41,039 nt of DNA, taken from positions 1 through 41,039 of IMG/VR virus record IMGVR_UViG_3300036845_000395, one strand, 5' to 3'. Of this stretch, positions 4,584 through 41,039 are shown one piece after another. Every line of letters begins with the position of its first letter. Within the stretch, counting starts at the first letter, position 1. The position numbers and the translations under genes were made by a program. A model generated the notes under the pieces. It did not search any database. It was not told the DNA's origin and was given only the letters and a program-made list of their open reading frames with translations. Origin of the DNA: a virus.

Positions 4584-4763
4584 ATGACGATCATCAGCCT
4601 TTTGGTTGTCGTCCTGATTTTCGCGATTGTCTGGTGGGTGCTTCAGCAACTCACGCTTCCGCCGCCGGTTCGCATGGTGGTCATCGTGGTCCTGGCGATC
4701 ATCGCTATCCTGTGGCTGCTATCCCTGGTTGGCGGCCCGAGCCTCGGGCTGCACGTCGGCTAG
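4584..4763 (+). CDS. Small two-helix membrane protein, Thivi_2564-like
   Basis: A 59-residue hydrophobic protein with two membrane segments: residues 2-18 (IISLLVVVLIFAIVWWV) and about 28-47 (MVVIVVLAIIAILWLLSL), joined by a TLPPPVR turn. Length and pattern match small Thivi_2564-type membrane proteins common in proteobacterial phages. It is the only rightward gene within the leftward 3.3-6.9 kb cluster. Its stop overlaps the end of the convergent neighbour by four bases. No strong ribosome site is visible. A holin-like role is possible but untested. Confidence 0.65.
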   Translation: MTIISLLVVVLIFAIVWWVLQQLTLPPPVRMVVIVVLAIIAILWLLSLVGGPSLGLHVG

Positions 4764-5146
4764 AGTTTAGCGTCTCGCCGGAAGAAGGCGCGCAGCGGCT
4801 CATCAAATTCAGGCGGCATACAGACGTTCGGCGTCGCGGCCGCGAACATCGGGGCGATGGCGCTTGGCCGGTAGCCCGCGAGGCCGCAGCCAACCGGCGT
4901 CAGGTCGAAGGTCAGTTCGGGATGGTCGGCGGCGTATTCGAGGAAGCGGTCAACCCCGACCCGGATCGAGGTGAGCGGCAACGTTTTCAGGTTTTCGTCC
5001 TTGGTCGGGATGGCATAGCTGAAGCCCTGGCGGCCTTCGCCCTGGCCGGTAACGGCGCCCCGGTTCTGCTTCGCCCACAGGGCCGCGCCCTTGCCGTGGC
5101 GGCCCGCGAGATTCGATCCGAACACGAAGACGGGGGGGATAGCCAT
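4760..5146 (-). CDS. A1S_2505-like phage non-structural protein
   Basis: A 128-residue protein matching the A1S_2505 family of small phage non-structural proteins. It opens with VFVFGSNLAGRHGKGAALWA and carries GQGEGRQGFSYAIPTKD, then LTPVGCGLAGY. The glycine-rich turns recall a nucleotide- or ADP-ribose-binding macro-like fold, but the biochemical role is not established. The start is coupled to the previous gene's stop (TGATG). It is the second gene back from the beta-helix gene in the leftward cluster. Confidence 0.8.
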   Translation of the reverse strand: MAIPPVFVFGSNLAGRHGKGAALWAKQNRGAVTGQGEGRQGFSYAIPTKDENLKTLPLTSIRVGVDRFLEYAADHPELTFDLTPVGCGLAGYRPSAIAPMFAAATPNVCMPPEFDEPLRAFFRRDAKL

Positions 5147-7119: not shown

Positions 7120-8190
7120 ATGGCCGGAACAGTCTATGGGGTCAACGCTCCCGAGGCGGTCAAGCTGTGGCGTTCACAGTTGGCAAGAGAAGCACTCAAA
7201 GCGACATGGATACAGAAGTTCGTCGGCGATTCATCTGACGATATCGTTCAGGTGTTCGGTGAAACCTCAAAGTCTGCTGGCGACCGCGTGACCGCGACGT
7301 TGCGGATGCAGCTGACCGGCGATGGCGTCAGTGGCGACGCGACCCTGGAGGGCAACGAAGAGCCCCTGACCACCTATACCGACAACCTGTTGATCGATCA
7401 GCTACGGCACGGCGTGCGCAGTGGCGGCAAGATGACCGAACAGCGTATCCCCTGGTCGATCCGGGAAGAGGCCATGATGGGCCTCAAGGATTGGTGGGCG
7501 GGCCGGTTCGATACGGCGTTCTTCAACCAGCTTGGCGGCTACACGCCGATCACGGACCTTCGCTATACCGGCAACAATGCGGTGATCGGCCCGGACGCCA
7601 ACCACATCACCCGGCCGAACGCGAAGACGGCCGATGAACTCCTGGCCGCCGGGGATGAAATGTCCCTGGCTCTGATCGACAAGCTGGTTGAAAGCGCCAA
7701 GCTCGGGTCGGTCAATGGGACCGGGCCGGTGATCCGGCCGGTCAATGTAGACGGTGAAGACCGGTACGTCGTGGTCATGCATACAAAGCAAGTCACGCAG
7801 CTTCGGACCAATACTCAAGCCGGGCAATTTTTGGACATTCAGAAGGCGGCGATGACCGGCGATGGATCGGCCAAGAACCCGATCATGACCGGCGCGCTCG
7901 GCATGTATAACGGCGCGGTCCTGCATGAATCGACCCGCGTCACCAATGGCGTGAACAGCACGACCGGCGTCCCGGTCCTGACTGCCCGGCGGGCGATGCT
8001 TCTAGGCGCGCAAGCCGCCGCCATTGGATTTGGCGAAGGGCAGTCGTTCAAGTCGTTCGACTGGAATGAAGAACTCTTTGACTATGGCAATCAGCTTGGC
8101 GTCGAAGCCGGGGTGATCCATGGCTTGAAGAAGCTTCAATTCAACTCGCAGTCCTTCGGCGTCATCGTCGGCTCGACTTTCACCAATTAG
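7120..8190 (+). CDS. Major capsid protein, N4-gp56 family
   Basis: A 356-residue coat protein of the N4-gp56 major capsid family (HK97 fold), forming the icosahedral shell. Recognisable parts are the N-terminal AREALKATWIQKFVG, the RMQLTGDGVSGDATLEGNEE loop, FDTAFFNQLGGYT and the C-terminal GVEAGVIHGLKKLQF. The start is supported by GAGGG about seven bases upstream. It is separated from portal and scaffold by the leftward accessory cluster, which is unusual for this gene order. Confidence 0.93.
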   Translation: MAGTVYGVNAPEAVKLWRSQLAREALKATWIQKFVGDSSDDIVQVFGETSKSAGDRVTATLRMQLTGDGVSGDATLEGNEEPLTTYTDNLLIDQLRHGVRSGGKMTEQRIPWSIREEAMMGLKDWWAGRFDTAFFNQLGGYTPITDLRYTGNNAVIGPDANHITRPNAKTADELLAAGDEMSLALIDKLVESAKLGSVNGTGPVIRPVNVDGEDRYVVVMHTKQVTQLRTNTQAGQFLDIQKAAMTGDGSAKNPIMTGALGMYNGAVLHESTRVTNGVNSTTGVPVLTARRAMLLGAQAAAIGFGEGQSFKSFDWNEELFDYGNQLGVEAGVIHGLKKLQFNSQSFGVIVGSTFTN

Positions 8191-8199
8191 GAGGGCGCG

Positions 8200-8577
8200 A
8201 TGGCGACCGGCGGGCGCAAGACACAGCTTCAGGTCATCCACGAGATCAGCGCGCAGTTCGGCTTCGGCCAGACGGCGGGCCAAATCGGCGTGCTCCCGGC
8301 GGGGGCGATCATGATGACCTGTCACGTTCTCAATTCTCAGGTGTGGAATTCCACGACCAGCGTCCTGAATGTCGGCACCACGCCCGGCGGGACGCAGATT
8401 ATCGCCGGGACCGATATCAAGACGGCGGTGGCGCGGGTCGATACGCCGGTTCCGGCGGCGACCATGGGGCCGCTGGCTATCGACACGCCGATCTACGGCA
8501 GCATCACCAACACCGGCCCGGCCCCGACGCAGGGCGTGGCGACGGTGTGGCTGGATTACCTGCCCGGCCCTGGCTAA
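8200..8577 (+). CDS. Small structural protein, decoration candidate
   Basis: A 125-residue protein directly after the coat gene with a strong GGAGGG site. It is predicted beta-rich, with many Thr, Gly and Val (TTSVLNVGTTPGGTQIIAG, then DTPIYGSITNTGPAPTQG) and few charges. Its position between coat and adaptor suggests a head decoration or head-completion protein. No family can be named from sequence alone. Confidence 0.6.
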   Translation: MATGGRKTQLQVIHEISAQFGFGQTAGQIGVLPAGAIMMTCHVLNSQVWNSTTSVLNVGTTPGGTQIIAGTDIKTAVARVDTPVPAATMGPLAIDTPIYGSITNTGPAPTQGVATVWLDYLPGPG

Positions 8578-8590
8578 GGGCGGTGCGGCC

Positions 8591-9229
8591 ATGCCGGATG
8601 ACCTCGGCGACCTGAAGACGCGGATTCAAAGCGAGACGCTGCGCGACGATCTGGTGGACGCCCTGGCGGGCGACCTGACGACGGCGATCCTGAAATCCAT
8701 CGACCATTACGAGTGGGAGCGGTGGTGGTTCAACGAGGGCCTGCTGACCGTGCCGTCCGTGGTCGATTCCATGTACGTCCCGATTGACCCCTCGACTCTC
8801 AGAATCGACGTGATTCGGGCGGTGATCGGCGGCGTCAGGTACAGGATGACCGAACGCCAAGTCGATTGGATCATGGCGGCCTATTCGGTCCCGACCTATG
8901 GCCAGCCGACGGAATGGGCGATCCTCGGCGATCAAGTCCTGATTTACCCGATGCCGAACCAGCCGTACCCGTTGCTGATGGAAATCATTCAACAAGTGCA
9001 GCCGGTGATCGACGGTACGGACGACACGATTTCGAACACATGGACGACGTTTGGCCAGGACTTGATTGTGGCCCGCTGCAAACTCAGGCTTTACCGCGAT
9101 TACCTGTCAGCGACGGCGCAGGACCCGCGCATCAGCAACGCGATGGCGCAGGAAGACGAGGCTTATACGAAGCTGCGCAGCCAATCGAACCGGCGCATGT
9201 CGGTGGATCGGGTTGAGCCCGGATGGTGA
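8591..9229 (+). CDS. Head-tail adaptor (connector) candidate
   Basis: A 212-residue protein resembling phage adaptor proteins that sit under the portal, as P22 gp4 does. It has an N-terminal helix (DLKTRIQSETLRDDLVDALAG), WWFNEGLLTVPSV, a GGVRYRMTERQVDWI segment and a helical C-terminus (ARCKLRLYRDYLSA). Its position after coat fits the P22 order. The ATG at 8591 has AAGGG upstream; longer in-frame extensions overlap the previous gene. Confidence 0.7.
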   Translation: MPDDLGDLKTRIQSETLRDDLVDALAGDLTTAILKSIDHYEWERWWFNEGLLTVPSVVDSMYVPIDPSTLRIDVIRAVIGGVRYRMTERQVDWIMAAYSVPTYGQPTEWAILGDQVLIYPMPNQPYPLLMEIIQQVQPVIDGTDDTISNTWTTFGQDLIVARCKLRLYRDYLSATAQDPRISNAMAQEDEAYTKLRSQSNRRMSVDRVEPGW

Positions 9230-9486
9230 CTCAGGCCGCGCCTTCATCGACCGCCCTGGTCGAAGCCGCCGCCCCGATGTGGGCGCAGCGCATGGCCTTG
9301 AAGATGGTCAGGCTGTTCATGCCGATGACGCCGCGCGCGCCGATGCCGGTGTGGACGGTGACGAAAGCCGAGCTACCGCCCGCCGCCGACTGGCCGAACA
9401 CCGTCGTCATCGTCAGCGACCAGAACGAGCTAGCCCTAAGCCTCGGCGGGGCGTGGCTGAAGATCAGCACAGGAGGGCCAGTGTGA
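9223..9486 (+). CDS. Small virion-module protein
   Basis: An 87-residue protein starting inside the adaptor stop (ATGGTGA). It has a Met/Arg-rich helix (MWAQRMALKMVRLFM) and a beta C-terminus (TVVIVSDQNELALSLGG, ending WLKISTGGPV). Conservation cannot be judged here. It probably belongs to the head-tail joining genes by context. Confidence 0.6.
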   Translation: MVTQAAPSSTALVEAAAPMWAQRMALKMVRLFMPMTPRAPMPVWTVTKAELPPAADWPNTVVIVSDQNELALSLGGAWLKISTGGPV

Positions 9487-9680
9487 TGGCCAAGGGATTC
9501 CAGACAGGCGGGCTCGATCCCGCCAGGCGGAAAGCCGCTTTCGCGCGCGGGACCGACAAGTCGAAGGGCGGATCGAAGGGCCTGCTTGGCGGCCTTGGAC
9601 CGGCCAGGGCCGGGTTCCGGCCTGCGGCGTTGCCGAAGATGCCGGGGATGCCGCCAGGGCCGAAAAAGGGAGGTTGGTGA
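9486..9680 (+). CDS. Very small basic Gly/Pro-rich protein
   Basis: A 64-residue protein, coupled to the previous stop (TGATG) and overlapped by good ribosome signals for the next gene. It is rich in Lys, Gly and Pro (DKSKGGSKGLLGGLGPARAG, ending MPPGPKKGGW) and so is probably disordered. A copy of CCGCCAGGCGG at 9520-9530 encodes PARR here. Function unknown. Confidence 0.55.
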   Translation: MAKGFQTGGLDPARRKAAFARGTDKSKGGSKGLLGGLGPARAGFRPAALPKMPGMPPGPKKGGW

Positions 9681-9681
9681 T

Positions 9682-9864
9682 ATGGCGCCGGTTAGGAAAT
9701 CCGGGTCCTTCAAGGGCAAGAGCAACGCGCTCGGCCACGGCGGCCGGGCGGCGCAGCTGAAGGCGCAAGGTGTGCCGGGCGGGGTGATTGGCGCCCTGGC
9801 GCGCAAGGCGCACGCGGCGCCGGGGCAGAAGAATTTCCACGGGGGCGCCAAGCGTAAAAGCTGA
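9682..9864 (+). CDS. Very small basic protein
   Basis: A 60-residue basic protein (MAPVRKSGSFKGKSNALGHG, then KAHAAPGQKNFHGGAKRKS). A GGGAGG site lies 9-12 bases upstream. The stop overlaps the tail-fibre ATG. With its neighbour it forms a pair of short lysine-rich proteins that may bind DNA or the connector, which is inference only. Confidence 0.55.
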   Translation: MAPVRKSGSFKGKSNALGHGGRAAQLKAQGVPGGVIGALARKAHAAPGQKNFHGGAKRKS

Positions 9865-11480
9865 TGCCGTCGTCCTATACCGCCTCCGCCCGGTTCACCC
9901 TTCAAGCGACCGGTGAGAACAACAACACCTGGGGCGTGATCCTCAATCAGGGCGTGTTCCAACTCGTTGACGACTCGATCAACGGGCGGCTGGCGATCAG
10001 CTTGTCCGGGCCGCACACGCTGACCGTGAATCAGGGCGCGACCGACGAAGCCCGCATGGCCTTCATCGACGTGACCGGCGGCTCGGGCGGGGTGATTACG
10101 GCGCCCTCTGTGCCGAAGAGCTACTTCGTCCACAACGGCTCTAGCGGCGGCGTGCAGCTTACGGGAGGCGCGACGCCATCGCCTGTGTTCAATCCGGGTG
10201 ACGCCGGACCCTTGTTCACGGACGGGACCACCTTCTATCCGGTGCTGATTGGCGGCCTGACGATCAAGGCTTATGCCGACGCGGGCGACGCGGCGCAAAA
10301 GGCCTATACGGACGCCTCGATTGCCTCAGCCTCGGCGATCAACCTTCCGTCCGTCGCGGGTCATGCCGGGCAGTTCCTCGGCACGGACGGGAGCGTCGCG
10401 CTATGGGAGCCTGCGCCGATTGCTTGGCGCAACCGTCTCGACAACGGGGGTATGCGAATCCAACAGCGGGCGGCGGGCGCTACCGTCCTGCTTGCGGGCG
10501 GCTCTCGGGCCTATCCCATCGACCGATGGGCCGCAACCATGGGCGCGGGAACCGCCGTCGGCAATGCGGCACAAACAACGGTCAATTGGGCGCCCGTAAC
10601 GCTCAATACAAAAGCACTGCAAATTTCGATCACAACGGCACAGGCGACACTAGCTGTAGGACAAGCGGCGCAAACCAACGTCGGAATTGAAGGTCTGAGG
10701 ATTGCAGACTTAGCGTGGGGCACTCCGAACGCCGTTCCTGTCACTGTTCAAGCGGTGCTAGCGGCAACGGTGGCAGGCGATTATTTTATACGATTGGCCA
10801 GTACAGCCCCAATTCAGTCCTATGTGCATAAGGTAACGCTGGCGGCTAGCACGACTACAAAAGTCGCGTTTACCGTGCAGGGTCCAACTAGCGGAACATG
10901 GCCAACGGACAGCTCGTTTTCGCTGGGCCTAGGCTTTTGCTTGGGCGCAGGCGCGAATTTCCAAACATCAACTTTTGACGCTTGGATACCGGGCAATTTT
11001 ACTTGCGGCGCTAGCCAAGTGAACGTCATGGCCGCAAACGGCAACGGCTTTTGGCTAACCGACGTGCAACTTGAAGTCGGGAGCGTAGCCACGCCGTTCG
11101 AGCGGCGGCCCTATGCCGTCGAATTGCAGCTTTGCCAGCGGTACTATGAGAACAACATGCCGGGCGGCGTGGCGCCCGCAGAGGGTGCGGCAATCGGATA
11201 TCAGGCGGGCGGCGCCTACGCCACGAATACCTTGTTAGCGGAAGTTCTGTTCAAGGTCGAAAAGCGAACTGCACCAATTGTCACCCTTTACCGCGCTAAT
11301 GTAGGCGTAGTGAATGGCCAATGGTCGGCGGCTATCGGCCCAAGCTCAGTGGATATGTCGGCTTCCGGCGCTAATCGCGGGACGACCAAGCGGTTTGAGG
11401 TTGGCGGGACTGTGCCAGCCCTTGCCCAAGGCCAATACTGCTTGATGACAGGCGGTTGGGCGGCGGATGCGGACTTCTGA
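9864..11480 (+). CDS. Tail fibre protein
   Basis: A 538-residue probable receptor-binding fibre. The N-terminal 170 residues (ATGENNNTWGVILNQG, then DGTTFYPVLIGG and an Ala/Asp coiled segment) look like the virion-anchoring part. The C-terminal half ends with the phage-fibre signature FWLTDVQLEVGSVATPFERR followed by PYAVELQLCQRYYE. From about 10590 to 11440 the DNA is visibly richer in A and T than its neighbours, suggesting that the distal domain was exchanged. No chaperone domain is seen. Confidence 0.8.
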   Translation: MPSSYTASARFTLQATGENNNTWGVILNQGVFQLVDDSINGRLAISLSGPHTLTVNQGATDEARMAFIDVTGGSGGVITAPSVPKSYFVHNGSSGGVQLTGGATPSPVFNPGDAGPLFTDGTTFYPVLIGGLTIKAYADAGDAAQKAYTDASIASASAINLPSVAGHAGQFLGTDGSVALWEPAPIAWRNRLDNGGMRIQQRAAGATVLLAGGSRAYPIDRWAATMGAGTAVGNAAQTTVNWAPVTLNTKALQISITTAQATLAVGQAAQTNVGIEGLRIADLAWGTPNAVPVTVQAVLAATVAGDYFIRLASTAPIQSYVHKVTLAASTTTKVAFTVQGPTSGTWPTDSSFSLGLGFCLGAGANFQTSTFDAWIPGNFTCGASQVNVMAANGNGFWLTDVQLEVGSVATPFERRPYAVELQLCQRYYENNMPGGVAPAEGAAIGYQAGGAYATNTLLAEVLFKVEKRTAPIVTLYRANVGVVNGQWSAAIGPSSVDMSASGANRGTTKRFEVGGTVPALAQGQYCLMTGGWAADADF

Positions 11481-11482
11481 CC

Positions 11483-12991
11483 ATGAATCAGCCGTTCCAA
11501 CCTGCCCAAGGGCTCGACTCCGACGATACGACCTTCAACGAGCTTGGCCGGTGGCTGAATTCGTCGCTGATCCGCTTCTATAACGGCTCCTGGCAGACCA
11601 AGGGCGGCTGGGAGCGGCTAACCCTTCAAGCCCTTAAAGGGGTGTGCCGCTCGACTCTCGCGTGGACCGATTTCAGCGATATCCTCGGCGTCGCCTTCGG
11701 CCTGCATAACGGCTTCGAAGTGTGGCGCGACAACCTGCTGTACGACATCACGCCAAGCCCTTGGACGGATGGCGAGATCGACGGGACCGGCGGCCGGGGC
11801 TTCGGCACGGGGGCGTGGAACGTCGGCACCTACGGCACTGAAAGCGACACGGAATATTACCCGCTCACATGGTCGCAAGCGACCTGGGGCGATCAGGTGG
11901 TCGCAAACCCGCGCGGCGGCATGATCTATCAATGGGATGGAACGACGGCCGACGTGCTGGTGCAAGTGCCGAACGCGCCCGCCGAAGTCACCTATATGCT
12001 GGTGGTCCCGCAACGGCAAATGATCGCCTTCGGCTGCAATGAGGAAACGTCGGGAACCTTCAACCCGCTGTGTATTCGCTGGTCGGATATCGAGGATCAA
12101 ACCGATTGGACGACGCTCCCGACCAACAACGCGGGCGAATATATCCTTCAGAGCTTCGGCCGCATCGTCACCGCCCGCGTGGTCGGCGATTATATTCTCG
12201 TATGGACGACGGTCGGCCTCTACCTCGGGACCTATCTCGGCAATCCGGGCCAGACGTGGCAATTCGATAAGGTCGGCGACCATTGCGGCGCGATCAGTCC
12301 CGGCGCCCCCATCGTCCAGGGGCAAAATGTGATGTGGATCGCGCCGGACCTGACGTTCTGGACCTATAGCCTCGGCGGCGTGCCGTCACAGATCGTCTGC
12401 CCGATCCGCTCGATGTTCACCGAGTTCATCGCCCCCGGCCAGCAAGACAAAATCATCGGGACGGCGGTTGCGCAGTTTCAGGAGATCGGCTGGTTTTACC
12501 CGGACACGCGCGACGGCTTCGAATGCTCGCGCCAGCTATGCCTTGGGCCGGACGGCTGGAATCGCGACTTGCTTCAGCGCACCGCGTGGATCGACGCCGG
12601 GCCGCAGTCGAACCCTATCGGGGTCGATCCGCAAGGTGACGTGTATCTGCACGAGAAAGGCAATTCGGCCGATGGCCAGCCGATCACAGGCTTCATCGAG
12701 AGCGCCGATTTCTATCTCGGCGACGCCGAAGGCGGCCTGATGGTCAATGGCGTGTGGCCGGACTTCAAGGGCCAGATCGGGCCACTTTCGCTGACGCTCT
12801 ACCTGCGTGACCATCCGCAGGCGGCGACCGTGCGGACCAAAGGACCGTTCGTCATGACGCCAGGGCAAGAGCGGCTGTGCCTGCGGGCGACCGGGCGGAT
12901 CGCCAGGGTGCGCTTCGACTTTTCATCGTCCCCGGCCTATGTGCGCGGCGGCAAGCCTGAGTTCGATGTGGCGGCCATAGGCGGGCGGTAG
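11483..12991 (+). CDS. Tail hub/stabilisation-like protein
   Basis: A 502-residue protein. The N-terminus (LIRFYNGSWQTKGGWERL) and repeated beta blades with Trp and Tyr (ITPSPWTDGEIDGTG, TYMLVVPQRQM, WTTVGLYLGTYLG) suggest a beta-propeller-like virion protein. Proteins of this type take the place of P22 gp10 in related phages and plug the connector. The ATG at 11483 is preferred because it follows the fibre stop by two bases. The family name is not certain. Confidence 0.6.
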   Translation: MNQPFQPAQGLDSDDTTFNELGRWLNSSLIRFYNGSWQTKGGWERLTLQALKGVCRSTLAWTDFSDILGVAFGLHNGFEVWRDNLLYDITPSPWTDGEIDGTGGRGFGTGAWNVGTYGTESDTEYYPLTWSQATWGDQVVANPRGGMIYQWDGTTADVLVQVPNAPAEVTYMLVVPQRQMIAFGCNEETSGTFNPLCIRWSDIEDQTDWTTLPTNNAGEYILQSFGRIVTARVVGDYILVWTTVGLYLGTYLGNPGQTWQFDKVGDHCGAISPGAPIVQGQNVMWIAPDLTFWTYSLGGVPSQIVCPIRSMFTEFIAPGQQDKIIGTAVAQFQEIGWFYPDTRDGFECSRQLCLGPDGWNRDLLQRTAWIDAGPQSNPIGVDPQGDVYLHEKGNSADGQPITGFIESADFYLGDAEGGLMVNGVWPDFKGQIGPLSLTLYLRDHPQAATVRTKGPFVMTPGQERLCLRATGRIARVRFDFSSSPAYVRGGKPEFDVAAIGGR

Positions 12992-13020
12992 CTGGTTGAC
13001 AAAACCGGCTGATTTTCGGG

Positions 13021-13050
13021 TTTGGTTGCGCAGGCCCTTCCGCAACCAAA
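13021..13050. terminator. Perfect 10-bp stem-loop after the hub gene
   Basis: TTTGGTTGCG pairs exactly with CGCAACCAAA around a ten-base loop. There is no U-run on the plus strand, so it may be a processing or pausing hairpin rather than a classical terminator. Confidence 0.45.
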
Positions 13051-13092
13051 TGTCCCGTTTTCCCGCATCGCCTGATGCAACAAAAAGGGACA
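13051..13092 (+). promoter_or_regulatory. Nested hairpin containing the next start codon
   Basis: TGTCCC pairs with GGGACA, TTTT with AAAA, and GCATC with GATGC around GCCT. The ATG at 13075 lies in the inner stem. If this start is used, the structure would restrain initiation. Confidence 0.4.
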
Positions 13093-13569
13093 TGCGCCGA
13101 GAAGATTGAAATCCCAAAGGAACGGGTTCACCCGGCCTTGGGGATGGATGGCGAAGCTCTCTCTCCCCCGCTGAACGATCCCATCGACCTTGAAACGACG
13201 GTCGATCCGCTGTTGTCGCAGTGGGCGCGATATCGGGACGGCTTCATCGAAGCCATGACCGATGACGGCTATTGGACGATTGACGAACTGGAATCGCGGG
13301 TCGCCAGCCGCCGGGCGTTCTTCTTCCCCGGCGCCAAGGCGGCGATGGTCGGTCAGATCGAAGTCTACCCTGGCGGCGCCCGCGTCTTTCAAATCCTGTG
13401 GGCGACTGGCGATGTGACCGAGCTGCTTCAGATGGCGCCGGGTATCGAGGCCCTGGCCCGGATGATGGGCTGCGTTGAAATCCTGATCGAAGGGCGCGAG
13501 GCGTGGCGGCGGCTGCTTGAGCCGATGGGTTACGCCCTGTTCAGCGTCACCCTGCGCAAGGCGCTGTAG
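13075..13569 (+). CDS. GNAT-fold-like virion-module protein
   Basis: A 164-residue protein. Residues from about 60 on (FFFPGAKAAMVGQIEVYPGG, FQILWATGDVTELLQM, IEALARMMGCVEILIEGREAW) resemble small acetyltransferase-fold proteins found near phage tail genes. The catalytic acetyl-CoA loop is not obvious, so activity is doubtful. The ATG at 13075 lacks a ribosome site and sits in a hairpin; Met at 13144 is an alternative. It precedes the ejection-type genes. Confidence 0.55.
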   Translation: MQQKGTCAEKIEIPKERVHPALGMDGEALSPPLNDPIDLETTVDPLLSQWARYRDGFIEAMTDDGYWTIDELESRVASRRAFFFPGAKAAMVGQIEVYPGGARVFQILWATGDVTELLQMAPGIEALARMMGCVEILIEGREAWRRLLEPMGYALFSVTLRKAL

Positions 13570-32732: not shown

Positions 32733-33143
32733 ATGACCGGAACCCGCCGACCCAAAAAACTGGAAAACCCGGACCCGAAGGCAGCGAGACGGGCCAAGGC
32801 GGTCAAGTACATCAGGATCGCCAAATGGCGCCGTGAAGCTATCGACGGCACGGACTCGCTGAAGCGGAACACGGTCAAGGCGCTCGCCAAGGCAGAACGG
32901 CGGCTGCGCAACAGCATGGCCTACATCGTGAGGCCCCGAAACGCGGACTTGGCCCGGTGGCGCACGATGGAAGCGCACATCGCCACCCTCAAGGCGAGCT
33001 TGGCCAAAATGGGGATCAGCAACGAGCACCCTCGTAGGCCCCTCAAGCTGAAGGCTGTTCAGCCGGTCGGCGCACAGCCGAAGGCGCGATTCCGCAATAC
33101 CGCGAACCCGAAACCGGAGGGAGGCCCTGATGCCACGTCCTGA
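32733..33143 (+). CDS. Small basic protein after the origin region
   Basis: A 136-residue Lys/Arg-rich protein. RRPKKLENPDPKAARRAKAV is followed by a helical middle (LKRNTVKALAKAERRLRNSM) and a basic tail. A GGGAGG site lies nine bases upstream. It overlaps the next gene by 14 bases. It is probably nucleic-acid binding from charge alone; no family is recognised. Confidence 0.6.
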   Translation: MTGTRRPKKLENPDPKAARRAKAVKYIRIAKWRREAIDGTDSLKRNTVKALAKAERRLRNSMAYIVRPRNADLARWRTMEAHIATLKASLAKMGISNEHPRRPLKLKAVQPVGAQPKARFRNTANPKPEGGPDATS

Positions 33144-36794: not shown

Positions 36795-36977
36795 CTAGCC
36801 GCGTGGTCTGTGGCCCCGGCTTCTGATCTGCGCCGCGACCCAATCAAGAGCATCTTCAACGTCCTGGCGAGGAAGGCCCGGCGTCCAGTCGCCTTCGCCC
36901 TCGATACCGGATTCCAGGGCTAATAGGGCGCTTTCGATGGCCGTCAGGATAGCGACGGTGAGGCGTGGTGGTTTCAT
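36795..36977 (-). CDS. Small hypothetical protein, last of leftward operon
   Basis: A 60-residue protein (MKPPRLTVAILTAIESALLA, then PRQDVEDALDWVAAQIR). The ATG overlaps the previous stop as ATGA, which favours this start over the one at 37010. It is predicted to be two helices, with no family recognised. Confidence 0.6.
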   Translation of the reverse strand: MKPPRLTVAILTAIESALLALESGIEGEGDWTPGLPRQDVEDALDWVAAQIRSRGHRPRG

Positions 36978-37327
36978 CCGCGCCTCCGGCTCTTGCTCGG
37001 CGGTGTCCAAGGCTGAGCTTGAACGTCGAAACTCGCTACGGTTTCGCTACAAATTGCTAGGGGGTCTACAGGCGCGGGAATCGGCTCGGGCTGTGGAGCA
37101 GCGGGCGGGGGCTGAATCGCCGTCAGGGGCTTCGCCTGCGCTGATTTCGCGGCTTGCAGCATCAGTTCGACCGCGCAGCGGACCGGGCCAGGGACCGGCT
37201 TGCGGTTGGTTTCCCACAGCCGGACCGATTGGCCCGGGTCACGCCCGATCAGGTAGAGGCGCCGCCCGAGGTCGGCGGCTGACAGCTTCAGGCGCTTGCG
37301 GGCGGATTCGAGTTCAGCGCCATTCAT
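36974..37327 (-). CDS. XRE-like HTH protein
   Basis: A 117-residue protein. Residues 1-60 form a lambda-repressor-like HTH (MNGAELESARKRLKLSAADL, GRRLYLIG, then SVRLWETNRKPVPGPVRCAV). The rest is a Pro/Ala-rich linker without a dimer domain. Both ends are coupled by ATGA overlaps. It is probably a regulator encoded late in the small-gene operon. Its target may be one of the palindromes in this genome, which is inference. Confidence 0.7.
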   Translation of the reverse strand: MNGAELESARKRLKLSAADLGRRLYLIGRDPGQSVRLWETNRKPVPGPVRCAVELMLQAAKSAQAKPLTAIQPPPAAPQPEPIPAPVDPLAICSETVASFDVQAQPWTPPSKSRRRG

Positions 37328-37539
37328 TTTGCGGTCTCGCGGGTCATCAGGAACAGGGCGCGGTCACGCAGGCCGAACGGGTCAGGGCGACCCGCGAGAC
37401 CAAGGGCGACCATTGCACAATCAAGGGCGGCTTCCTGGCCGCTACAGGTTGTGCGCAGGTAGATGCGGGCGACTTGTTGAAGGACGGTCAGGGTATGCAG
37501 CGATTTCGCTACGGGAGTCGTATTGGTCGGGAGGGCCAT
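37324..37539 (-). CDS. Small hypothetical protein
   Basis: A 71-residue protein starting MALPTNTTPVAKSLHTLTVL. It contains two Cys in a helical middle (YLRTTCSGQEAALDCAMVAL) and ends DRALFLMTRETAK. It is coupled to the HTH gene downstream by ATGA. No family is recognised. Confidence 0.6.
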   Translation of the reverse strand: MALPTNTTPVAKSLHTLTVLQQVARIYLRTTCSGQEAALDCAMVALGLAGRPDPFGLRDRALFLMTRETAK

Positions 37540-37544
37540 GGCGG

Positions 37545-37769
37545 TCAGGACTTGATCAGCACGGTCAGGAAGGTGGCGAAGGACGCGAGGAAGGCGCCCC
37601 AGACCAGCAACGGCGCCCATCGGGTGTCGCTGTTCAGCTTGTGGGATTCGGCGATCAGTTTTTGCGTCTCGGCTGTGAACTTGCGGGTTTCGGCCTGCGC
37701 CTGTTCGATGCGGGCGACCTGTTCTTGAAAGTCATAGGCGTGCGGTTCGGGAGCGTGTGTGTCAGTCAT
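37545..37769 (-). CDS. Coiled-coil protein with C-terminal membrane anchor
   Basis: A 74-residue protein. After an Asp/His/Pro leader comes a coiled coil (VARIEQAQAETRKFTAETQK, then LIAESHKLN), followed by one membrane segment at the C-terminus (WAPLLVWGAFLASFATFLTV). Such tail-anchored coiled-coil proteins are frequent in alphaproteobacterial phages, and their role is unknown. The ATG at 37769 lies 19 bases downstream of the GTGCA palindrome copy c. Confidence 0.65.
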   Translation of the reverse strand: MTDTHAPEPHAYDFQEQVARIEQAQAETRKFTAETQKLIAESHKLNSDTRWAPLLVWGAFLASFATFLTVLIKS

Positions 37770-37788
37770 CGGCTGGCTCTCTTCTATG

Positions 37789-37801
37789 GTGCAATTTGTA
37801 C
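37789..37801. promoter_or_regulatory. Palindromic operator candidate (copy c)
   Basis: GTGCA-ATT-TGTAC has the same spacing as copies a and b, with one mismatch in the second half-site. It lies just upstream of the coiled-coil membrane gene. Confidence 0.45.
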
Positions 37802-37821
37802 GCGCGGACGATCCGGGCGCC

Positions 37822-37892
37822 AAGGCGGCTATCGCCTTCATGCCTTAAGCCGGGCCAGCGTTTCCGCTTCCCGGCTATGGGCGCTAGGGCGC
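37822..37892 (-). ncRNA. Duplicated structured RNA-like element, copy A
   Basis: On the minus strand, starting 15 bases after the stop of the 37907 gene, this is read as a small GCGC-CCTA-GCGC hairpin, then a seven-pair stem (AGCCGGG with CCCGGCT) capped by AGCG-GAAA-CGCT, then AAGGCG-ATAGC-CGCCTT. Copy B (38395-38464) shares most bases but swaps one G-C pair of the main stem for C-G, a compensatory change. It lies between two small genes and may be a leader or processing element. Confidence 0.6.
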
Positions 37893-37906
37893 GAAGGGTT
37901 GAGGGG

Positions 37907-38056
37907 TCAGGCTTTGCGGCAAGCGATTATGAGGAAGCGCGAGCCGGTCCAGCCACCCCCATAGGTCCGGCCGATTTCGAAAGACACTGGCGAGCGGTCT
38001 TCGATGGTCATTCCCTTGAGGGCGCCGTCGAGAATGGTTTTGGTCACGATGAACAT
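37907..38056 (-). CDS. Very small hypothetical protein
   Basis: A 49-residue gene: MFIVTKTILDGALKGMTIED, then FEIGRTYGGGWTGSRFLIIA and CRKA. AAGGA lies ten bases before the ATG. Gly and aromatic residues suggest a compact beta domain. No family is recognised. RNA-like element A follows it directly. Confidence 0.6.
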   Translation of the reverse strand: MFIVTKTILDGALKGMTIEDRSPVSFEIGRTYGGGWTGSRFLIIACRKA

Positions 38057-38082
38057 TGTTGTGGGTCCTTGAAGGGTGATGG

Positions 38083-38370
38083 CTAGGCGGCTAACTGGTC
38101 TAGCTGGTCGCGCATGGTCGTTACCGCCTCGCGACAGGTCGCCAGCGGGACCTTGCCGCCTAGGACAAGGCGCAGGGCTTGCGCGGCTTTTTCAACTTGC
38201 TGGTCAGCGGGTTTGACGGCGACTGGCGCCGAAACCGCCACCGCGCGGCGGGCGATGGTGTGACAGGTTGGGCAAACCTTACAGTGCGACGCGCGGAACA
38301 TATGTCCGCAGGCGTGACGCTTGTATTCAGCCGGGAGAGACAGACCTTTGTAAGCTTTGGACATAGCCAT
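38083..38370 (-). CDS. Small zinc-finger-like protein
   Basis: A 95-residue protein. HACGHMFRASHCKVCPTCHT holds four Cys and several His in a CxxC-type arrangement typical of a zinc finger. A helical C-terminus follows (AAQALRLVLGGKVPLATCRE). Start Met at 38370 or 38364; neither has a clear ribosome site. The frame continues upstream through RNA-like element B to 38448, which I regard as accidental. Confidence 0.6.
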   Translation of the reverse strand: MAMSKAYKGLSLPAEYKRHACGHMFRASHCKVCPTCHTIARRAVAVSAPVAVKPADQQVEKAAQALRLVLGGKVPLATCREAVTTMRDQLDQLAA

Positions 38371-38394
38371 TTGAGCGGGTGCTTTCTGAAACTG

Positions 38395-38464
38395 AGGCGT
38401 TATCGCCTTCACGCCTTCAACCCGGCCAGCGTTTCCGCTTCCGGGCATTGGGCGCTAGGGCGCG
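38395..38464 (-). ncRNA. Duplicated structured RNA-like element, copy B
   Basis: This is the second copy, again starting about 14 bases after the stop of an upstream gene (38478). The main stem GCCCGG with CCGGGT is capped by the same AGCG-GAAA-CGCT. The last hairpin is AGGCG-ATAA-CGCCT, with a loop one base shorter than in copy A. Bases outside the stems, such as CGCGCCCTAGCGCCCA, are identical in both copies. Confidence 0.6.
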
Positions 38465-38477
38465 ATGTGAGCGGCGG

Positions 38478-38729
38478 TTAGTCGCCATAGCCGATGCGGG
38501 AAGGTTTCACGCGATCCGCGAAGGCTTCAGCTTCGCCCTTTGTGGCGAAGGGCGGACGGCAGGCGCCGACTTGGCCGTTGTGCGGGTTGCGAACCGTCCA
38601 ACCAGAGTCTTCCACTTCCCATTCCGCCATTTCGCTGGCGGATCGCCACGGCGCCGCACCGTAGACTGATGCGGTTTGGCCTGATGTGTGGCGCCAACGG
38701 CGAGCAGGGATGACTTCAAAGCGGTTCAT
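38478..38729 (-). CDS. Small phage protein, MNRFEVIPARRW type
   Basis: An 83-residue protein of a recurring phage type: MNRFEVIPARRWRHTSGQTA, then GWTVRNPHNGQVGACRPPFA and TKGEAEAFADRV. Its function is unknown. The ordered Trp, Asn and Gly pattern suggests a small beta fold. It is the second gene of the leftward operon. Confidence 0.7.
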   Translation of the reverse strand: MNRFEVIPARRWRHTSGQTASVYGAAPWRSASEMAEWEVEDSGWTVRNPHNGQVGACRPPFATKGEAEAFADRVKPSRIGYGD

Positions 38730-38979: not shown

Positions 38980-39022
38980 TTGCAACTCTCCGGCGCCGGT
39001 TACATCAACCGGGTGAACCCCA

Positions 39023-39051
39023 TACATACATACGTTGTACGTATCTGCCAA
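39023..39051 (-). promoter_or_regulatory. Leftward promoter with internal operator
   Basis: On the minus strand, TTGGCA (39051-39046) and TATGTA (39028-39023) are separated by 17 bases. ATACGT-TGT-ACGTAT (39030-39044), a perfect inverted repeat, occupies that spacer, an ideal place for a repressor to block RNA polymerase. It lies 44 bases before the first gene of the operon. Confidence 0.6.
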
Positions 39052-39472
39052 GGGGAAAGCGCAAGCAACGTGCGACACATTGGACCGCGCGCGGCGCGCG
39101 TGTGCGTCAGGCGCAGGGCATGCGTCAGTGGTCGCTAGATCGAAGGGTTCGCCGCGCTAGCCTGAACACGTCCAGACAGGCGCGAGGCCCCAGTTTCAGG
39201 CGCGCGATTTTTTCCCGTTATTTGGGATTCTGTAGGCGTTCGCGTTCGTTTGGCCGCTCGCCAGGTCGCGCGCCACAATGTCGAGAACGCTGGTTTCTGG
39301 CTACACCTTCCCCGCCCTAGGGGAAAGGTCGCTGTTGATATCGTTCAGCTTTCCGCCGCAGCGCTCGCTTTACCCCTGCGGATTACCCCGCAAGCTGGTC
39401 GCTCGCCCCCCTCCCGCTGCGCCCGCGCGCCCCTCGAAAAATCAATCCCTACTGCCCCCCTAGGCTCTCTTC

Positions 39473-40457: not shown

Positions 40458-41039
40458 GCGCCGGGATCACGCCTGACGGGCCGCGCGGCCCGCAGTTCGA
40501 TGGCCCGCAGGCCTTGAGTCCGGCGCAGCAGCAGCCCCCTCCTGGCCGCAAGCAGACGGACCCGGCGAGCAAGCTGGACGGTCGGCGCACGGCAACGGAG
40601 TTGCCGGACGACGACGATCTGTTGGCCATGTTCGACCGCTGGGATAGCGCCCTGACCGCCCATTGGTCGCAATGGATGGAAGAGGCGCGCGGCTGGTACG
40701 ACTTCAGGGCCGGGAAGCAATGGACCGAAGTCGAAACCGAGCGGATGGATGAAAACCAGAAGATTCCGGTCACGTTCAACCTCACCGAACCGGCCATTGA
40801 TGCGGTCAACGGCGCCGAGATACAGGACCGGCAACAGGTCCAATACTATCCGCGTAATACGAGCCTGCAATCGACCGGGATCGCCGACGTGCTGACGCAG
40901 GGCGCCAACTACGTGGTCGATCAATGCAACGGCGATCAGGAGGACACCGACGCGTTCTTGGATTGCCTGACCTGTGGCGTCGGCTGGACCGAAACGCGGG
41001 TCGAGGTCGAAGGCCCGGCGGCCAGCATCATCAAGGAAC
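40454..41039 (+). CDS. Portal protein, N-terminal part (runs off the right end)
   Basis: This encodes the first 195 residues of a P22-type portal, the dodecameric ring at the head vertex through which DNA is packaged and ejected. The ATG overlaps the stop of the upstream gene as ATGA. After a Pro/Gln-rich leader of about 50 residues comes the portal N-terminus with WYDFRAGKQW, then an EPAIDAVNG segment typical of P22-like portals. The frame continues at base 2 of the window, giving 749 residues in total, close to the 725 of P22 gp1. Partial only because of where the circle was opened. Confidence 0.92.
   Translation, partial: MSAGITPDGPRGPQFDGPQALSPAQQQPPPGRKQTDPASKLDGRRTATELPDDDDLLAMFDRWDSALTAHWSQWMEEARGWYDFRAGKQWTEVETERMDENQKIPVTFNLTEPAIDAVNGAEIQDRQQVQYYPRNTSLQSTGIADVLTQGANYVVDQCNGDQEDTDAFLDCLTCGVGWTETRVEVEGPAASIIKE
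40885..41039. repeat. Terminal direct repeat, right copy
   Basis: This is the second copy of the end overlap and lies inside the portal gene. It keeps the portal reading frame in register with the left end, because codons at 40889 and 5 are equivalent. The six differences from the left copy all lie in its last 29 bases. Confidence 0.9.

Follow-up and report, generated by a model that had tools for sequence, protein, structure and literature searches.

Repeats that act in cis at start codons are already known, and so are single hairpins between cistrons. In cluster K mycobacteriophages, the start-associated sequences (SAS) and extended start-associated sequences (ESAS) include a 13-bp motif lying 3-7 bp before start codons, and in the cited sections the departures within the ESAS inverted repeat do not support pairing (PMC3203893). 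In the gal operon, according to the cited part of the source, 3'-5' exonucleases are stopped by a hairpin between two cistrons (PMC9239205), and the portion of a review concerned with a library study reports that structure right after the stop codon reduces translational coupling (PMC12548453). Here a folded element is described that was met as two copies, A and B, in a 41,039-nt stretch of virus DNA, IMGVR_UViG_3300036845_000395 (G000, called the window below), which is the whole IMG/VR record of a temperate phage with recognisable integrase, primase-helicase and terminase. Together with its homologues, the element suggests an undescribed RNA punctuation mark separating neighbouring genes in related temperate phages.

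Both copies are on the minus strand and occupy two gaps of a leftward small-gene operon, which is bounded by the end of the terminase gene (36776) and, at about 39.7 kb, by genes that run rightward. A preliminary description of the window, made from its letters alone, had reported a duplicated RNA-like element here, and a direct-repeat search indeed gave 37830-37894 versus 38401-38465 as the longest pair there, two structured copies with 89% identity over 65 nt. The 56-nt core is located at 37840..37895 in copy A (68.5 bits with covariance model R1, 64.2 bits with R2) and at 38411..38466 in copy B (74 and 69.2 bits). Copy A begins 11 nt past the TGA of a 49-aa gene (37907-38056), and copy B 11 nt past the TAA of an 83-aa gene (38478-38729); the 14-15 bases given earlier had been counted from the stop itself. 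Hairpin P1, GCGC ccta GCGC, was found at 37881..37892 in A, where its 3' strand could alternatively pair with the 3' end of the element (P3), and at 38452..38463 in B. Hairpin P2 (37848..37876 in A, 38420..38446 in B) has an outer stem, AGCCGGG/CCCGGCT in A and GCCCGG/CCGGGT in B, followed by a GG bulge and an inner stem with a GAAA loop. The change from G-C to C-G and that from G-C to G-U, which had been pointed out in this stem, are both confirmed when GCCGGG/CCCGGC of copy A is set against GCCCGG/CCGGGT of copy B. The following hairpin was also correctly seen; it is an optional third one (P4), AAGGCG atagc CGCCTT at 37822..37838 after A and AGGCG ataa CGCCT at 38395..38408 after B.

Homologues were first revealed by searching viral contigs for relatives of the terminase, of which 80 loci were retained, and by a profile of A and B, and R1 was built on a seed of 20 copies. 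In 49 virus records picked from the loci in hand, R1 gave 28 copies in 13 records with E values of 4.1e-7 or better, and 12 further matches (E 0.003 to 0.09) were treated as chance. A search independent of the RNA, with the protein F1 of the same operon, gave 17 loci, ten of them in known element-bearing records and seven in new records, and all seven new records carried the element, adding 14 copies. One diverged copy, in the gap before F1 in L187, was missed by R1 and spotted by eye (R2 E 1.2e-4). The family amounts to 43 copies in 20 virus records, with one to four per record, and it is known only from one leftward accessory operon and in a single orientation. In nine large records of the first set that carry the element, all 22 R2 matches with E<0.01 were inside the operon and the next match had an E value of 0.021. 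In the terminase-relative set, the loci matched by R2 were L187 and L018, the latter a carrier of a copy; in the terminase relatives without the element R2 gave nothing below E 0.1. One phage, G007, has three identical copies. The preliminary description did not recognise that the element forms a family tied to stop codons.

The element family is absent from Rfam, as Rfam 15 gave no match in the window at the gathering threshold and none in 37750-38520 at E values up to 10. The annotated phage and plasmid collections, searched whole, contained only short chance matches, and at least 77 new loci from a looser viral pattern (L191-L267) gave nothing better than E 0.49 with R1. When the gene downstream of copy B was used as a query, no relatives were found. 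Eight exact matches to an 18-mer of the core turned up in viral contigs, several of which read as coding EAETLA, and these were judged chance because the flanking element was missing. A pattern scan over the genomes of 84,980 species of bacteria and archaea gave 22 matches, which were likewise put down to chance, as the 5' half of the element is lacking in every one; since the same pattern recovers 17 copies in virus records, the absence from cellular genomes is informative but not complete. A covariance-model search of three whole bacterial genomes was uninformative, with 150 of 7,368 to 13,242 candidates scored. As to the host, a terminase relative turned up in one genome among 390 from one family, with 59% identity across part of the protein, and in one among 385 from the class (45% identity).

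The consensus fold is composed of P1 (GCGN loop N'CGC) and P2, with an outer stem of about six pairs, the GG bulge and an inner stem with a mostly GNRA-type loop, and then GGCGU. Of the 599 cells in the 40-copy alignment A7 (38 distinct rows), 95.2% are paired, compared with 77.1% in shuffles. Double changes are found in 10 of 16 pairs, and the 85 doubly changed cells stand against 28.1 in shuffles (0/500) and 1 to 24 in slid-structure controls. For the 14 non-seed copies, which were aligned by a model that leans toward its own structure, 93.5% of cells are paired and 32 cells are doubly changed versus 9.9 in shuffles. Covariation was evident in the seed, in the whole first set of 28 copies, in the 14 non-seed copies and in the 40 copies combined. 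With pair-keeping double changes beyond both shuffles and slid controls, the element is a conserved structured RNA.

The fold energies agree, with a mean z of -2.61 over the 38 distinct copies, 29 of which are below -2. The folds of the two window copies alone are only mildly unusual (z about -2.4 and -2.7), and the structure was settled by these homologues and their strong covariation. The choice of RNA structure over a conserved peptide held up: the peptide reading is broken in copy A by a stop in the frame of the longer open reading frame of B, no frame is open through the 38 distinct copies while pairing is kept through many double changes, no homologue keeps the peptide while losing the pairing, and no known repeat matches the element. 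The stems contain 14 G-T against one A-C, so the strand that folds is the mRNA strand of the operon.

P1 alone is weaker, with 77.7% of cells paired when aligned by the model, a figure lowered mainly by one-base slips in some copies; when each copy was parsed separately, a helix of at least four pairs was present in the P1 region of 37/38 distinct copies. In two insertion copies the parser caught the inserted hairpin, with the true P1 further upstream. These copies (L180:3930-4058 and 4830-4959) have the same hairpin-bearing insert of more than 50 nt between P1 and P2, which is apparently a nested, mobile hairpin. The 3' GGCGU could pair with the 3' strand of P1 to give P3, with at least four pairs in 33/38 distinct copies, and P3 overlaps P1 by at least two bases in 36/38, so that the two helices are predicted to compete for the same bases. 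When the core was folded alone, P3 was favoured in 40/42 copies and P1 in 9/42 (probability >0.5). Comparison of each P3 tail with shuffled tails weakly supports P3, as the observed score was reached in 33 of 2000 shuffles and P3 varies little. A variant without the GGCGU tail and with P2 lengthened (CTCAGGCCCG/CGGGCCTGAG) was seen at L127:3445-3501 (G006), which is a natural P1-only form. Across the family, a hairpin of variable sequence follows the element in 27/40 copies (stem score >=12; mean 13.0 versus 9.8 in shuffles), and is therefore an optional add-on.

The position after the stop codon is close to constant. Among 42 copies, of which three had the distance set by hand, the distance from stop to element is 8 nt in two, 9 in five, 10 in 16, 11 in 12, 12 in five, 13 in one and 17 in one, and the 43rd copy sits 14 nt from its stop, giving 8-14 nt in 42/43. 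All three stops are used (TAA 15, TAG 14, TGA 13), and the distances modulo 3 (17, 15 and 10) show no frame lock. Unlike the distance from the stop, that to the next start is variable. By a simple in-house gene prediction, 33 of 38 element junctions have gaps of 78-140 nt, and the other five have 163 and 167 nt (the insertion copies) and 200, 255 and 438 nt, the last three probably reflecting missed genes. Of the 90 gaps without an element, 76 are at most 37 nt, most of them -4 to +6 nt, so that the genes mostly adjoin closely or overlap, the arrangement seen where translation is coupled. Among the other 14 gaps one held the diverged copy, and the longest are beyond the operon. Pairing between the element and the Shine-Dalgarno region is weak (mean probability 0.07, n=37). 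The next start site is therefore not hidden by the element, and a role as a Shine-Dalgarno mask was ruled out. Some element-free relatives have strong, unrelated hairpins in long operon gaps (L167 in G011, L153/L154 in G022, L151/L152 in G009), possibly different elements with a similar role.

The gene for F1 (37324..37539, minus strand) encodes 71 aa, MALPT...AKSLHTLTV, and co-occurs with the element: F1 was present in 9/9 full element-bearing records and 0/9 full element-free relatives, and all 17 loci of the F1 profile lie in element-carrying records. It was not found in the element-bearing fragments G008 and G045, making 11/13 element-bearing records in all. An AlphaFold2 model predicted three helices (mean predicted local distance difference test score 83.5), and F1 had no PHROG match, no match in phage records and no confident or close known fold. 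From its distribution, F1 may be the partner of the element. A perfect 13-nt inverted repeat with a spacing of 43 nt was noticed within the F1 gene (37333-37401). A basic 136-aa protein (32733-33143) is likewise present in 9/9 full element-bearing and 0/9 element-free records, and also in the element-free fragment G012.

From the structure and its placement we infer, with a probability of roughly 0.4, that the element is an intercistronic mRNA boundary which sits just clear of the terminating ribosome and uncouples neighbouring gene blocks in translation. During termination the ribosome occupies roughly 9-10 nt beyond the stop codon, so an element at 8-14 nt is about as near as folding allows. 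This translational boundary is favoured because the operon resembles coupled blocks parted by elements, and because structure after a stop has the effect on coupling reported from the library study. P1 and P2, lying just past the leading edge of the ribosome, would fold undisturbed and would block the post-terminating ribosome from reaching the next start codon, and the next gene block would initiate from its own Shine-Dalgarno sequence. The same hairpin could give the upstream message a stable 3' end, and protection of that message is probably a second effect by analogy with known hairpins. A factor, perhaps F1, might read the conserved unpaired letters, as is suggested by the unpaired UCGCG, the GG bulge and GGCGU together with the clade-limited distribution, while the competition of P1 and P3 could make the boundary adjustable.

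Several points weigh against this boundary. Its geometry depends on the footprint size assumed for the ribosome. Shine-Dalgarno strength has a median of -5.2 after element gaps and -5.1 after others, so there is no sign of an added demand for independent initiation. A simple hairpin would be enough for uncoupling, and the sequence conservation demands more. As for F1, its link with the element is confounded by shared ancestry, and a fold comparison of the predicted model recognised no RNA-binding fold. The features beyond a plain hairpin, namely the fixed unpaired letters, the competing helices, the clade restriction and F1, may point to a reading factor or a switch. In a stop-anchored RNA switch with two states, the ribosome at the stop, or F1, would pick P1 or P3 and so gate translation or transcription onward; taken as a whole this version is quite unlikely.

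The hairpins could also act on the message itself, as a processing or stabilisation signal at which an RNase cut or a block to 3'-5' exonucleases gives stable 3' ends, uncoupling being secondary. Seats right after stops, strong G+C-rich hairpins without a T run (0/42) and the additional hairpin behind 27/40 copies are what such a signal would show, and the gal E-hairpin is a precedent in the cited part of its source (PMC9239205); yet a 3' stabiliser needs no fixed short stop distance, no unpaired letters and no two competing helices, and this explanation appears unlikely. An intrinsic terminator was rejected separately: five T in the 8 nt behind P2 were found in 0/42 copies, and there was no terminator-like site at copy A or copy B. 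Another reading is an antitermination or anti-Rho function of the put or nut kind, in which the nascent RNA, alone or with F1, would make RNA polymerase or the message resistant to Rho where translation ends. Rho acts in untranslated operon gaps, the element is a two-hairpin RNA in a phage operon with the clade-specific small protein F1 co-occurring, and the HK022 put system is an RNA antiterminator in the cited text (PMC8955417). A processive system would not need up to four copies along an operon, however, which makes this function rather unlikely. We know of no put or nut sites with a strict link to stop codons.

The neighbourhood of the element is shuffled, and the element might be a boundary at the DNA level, a recombination linker or attC-like site for which the RNA strand bias is incidental. 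The families F3 and F2 adjoin in G002 and G003, and are separated in G047 and G048 by the element plus one of two different genes. Neighbour families switch in 18/24 comparisons at element junctions and in 39/81 elsewhere (Fisher p 0.034, the comparisons not being independent), and copies are more alike within than between phages (0.763 versus 0.663; 0/2000 label shuffles), as is the inner P2 (0.683 versus 0.508). So the elements take part in, or mark, cassette exchange. Repeat recombination, however, yields the same pattern without being the function of the element, and the excess of G-T over A-C indicates selection on the mRNA strand, this G-U signature saying that the RNA is what selection sees. 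Moreover, RYYYAAC was found in three of 42 copies, GTTRRRY in none and both in none, an integron integrase not having been searched for; a DNA-level function is considered improbable. Dispersed copies, the three identical ones in G007 and the insert nested in two L180 copies would suit a miniature mobile element like the repetitive extragenic palindromic (REP) sequences and their hairpin-forming doublets (REPINs), surviving only after stops. What does not fit is that the element keeps to one operon and always has the same orientation, at an almost fixed distance from the stop; no copy is elsewhere in the nine largest element-bearing records of the first set, and a Y1 transposase (PF01797) was detected in 0/11 element-bearing records, where controls scored in 5/14 and a host enzyme acting in trans is possible, so that such an origin is very improbable. 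Viral readthrough structures have a similar spacer of about 10 nt, and both window copies are open for 22 codons past the stop. A readthrough stimulator or a coding repeat is nevertheless hardly credible: these readings fail since the extensions run from 3 to 122 codons without a frame lock, in addition to the use of all three stops and the lack of a frame open in all distinct copies.

Of the other genes in the operon (minus strand), that immediately downstream of copy A (37545..37769) belongs to family F6 and phrog_6330 (unknown function), that downstream of copy B (38083..38371) encodes about 95 aa from an ATG at 38371 or nearby, and that at 36974..37327 was seen in records both with and without the element. 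A partly palindromic stretch, ATACGTACAACGTATGTATG, was spotted by eye upstream of the first operon gene (39005-39060, minus strand) and is a possible operator. The ends of the record, 1-155 and 40885-41039, repeat each other over 155 nt with 149 identical, inside the 604-aa gene of the left end. The genome is circular or terminally redundant, and the record was probably assembled from mixed strains.

In kind, SAS/ESAS is the nearest known system. Within what the cited sections cover, both families are dispersed cis repeats of one orientation in non-structural phage operons, are associated with many unrelated genes and have a proposed role in translation, whereas SAS/ESAS is start-anchored without covariation and the element is stop-anchored and strongly covarying. 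The SAS consensus GGGATAGGAGCCC had one match in the window, with two mismatches, at 4713, away from the elements (chance mean 1.00). Like the put RNA of HK022 and other antiterminator RNAs, the element is a short folded phage RNA acting in cis in an operon. The put sites are antiterminators of early transcripts, while the element is repeated after stop codons, and no sequence link was found between them. The gal E-hairpin at the galE-galT junction is also intercistronic and defines a stable mRNA 3' end, but in the cited part it is single, with the mRNA 3' end about 130 nt past the stop (PMC9239205). REP sequences and REPINs are, in the sections cited, repeated, extragenic and hairpin-forming with compensatory changes, and REPINs are tied to the REP-associated tyrosine transposase (PMC3116915), in contrast to the element, which is strictly stop-linked in one orientation with no such transposase found in the phages. 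No stop-anchored repeated phage RNA was described in the open-licence literature searched by title or abstract, and other literature may hold one. If the element does uncouple or insulate, it would offer polycistronic designs a compact natural insulator and would explain how a phage accepts swapped accessory genes without disturbing their neighbours; if it is a switch, it would be a portable ribosome-sensing boundary for assembling accessory operons from shuffled genes. It also makes the behaviour of post-terminating ribosomes at a structure just past the stop directly testable. Compared with the systems above, operon punctuation by a repeated covarying RNA whose position depends on the stop codons of unrelated genes would be of a new type.
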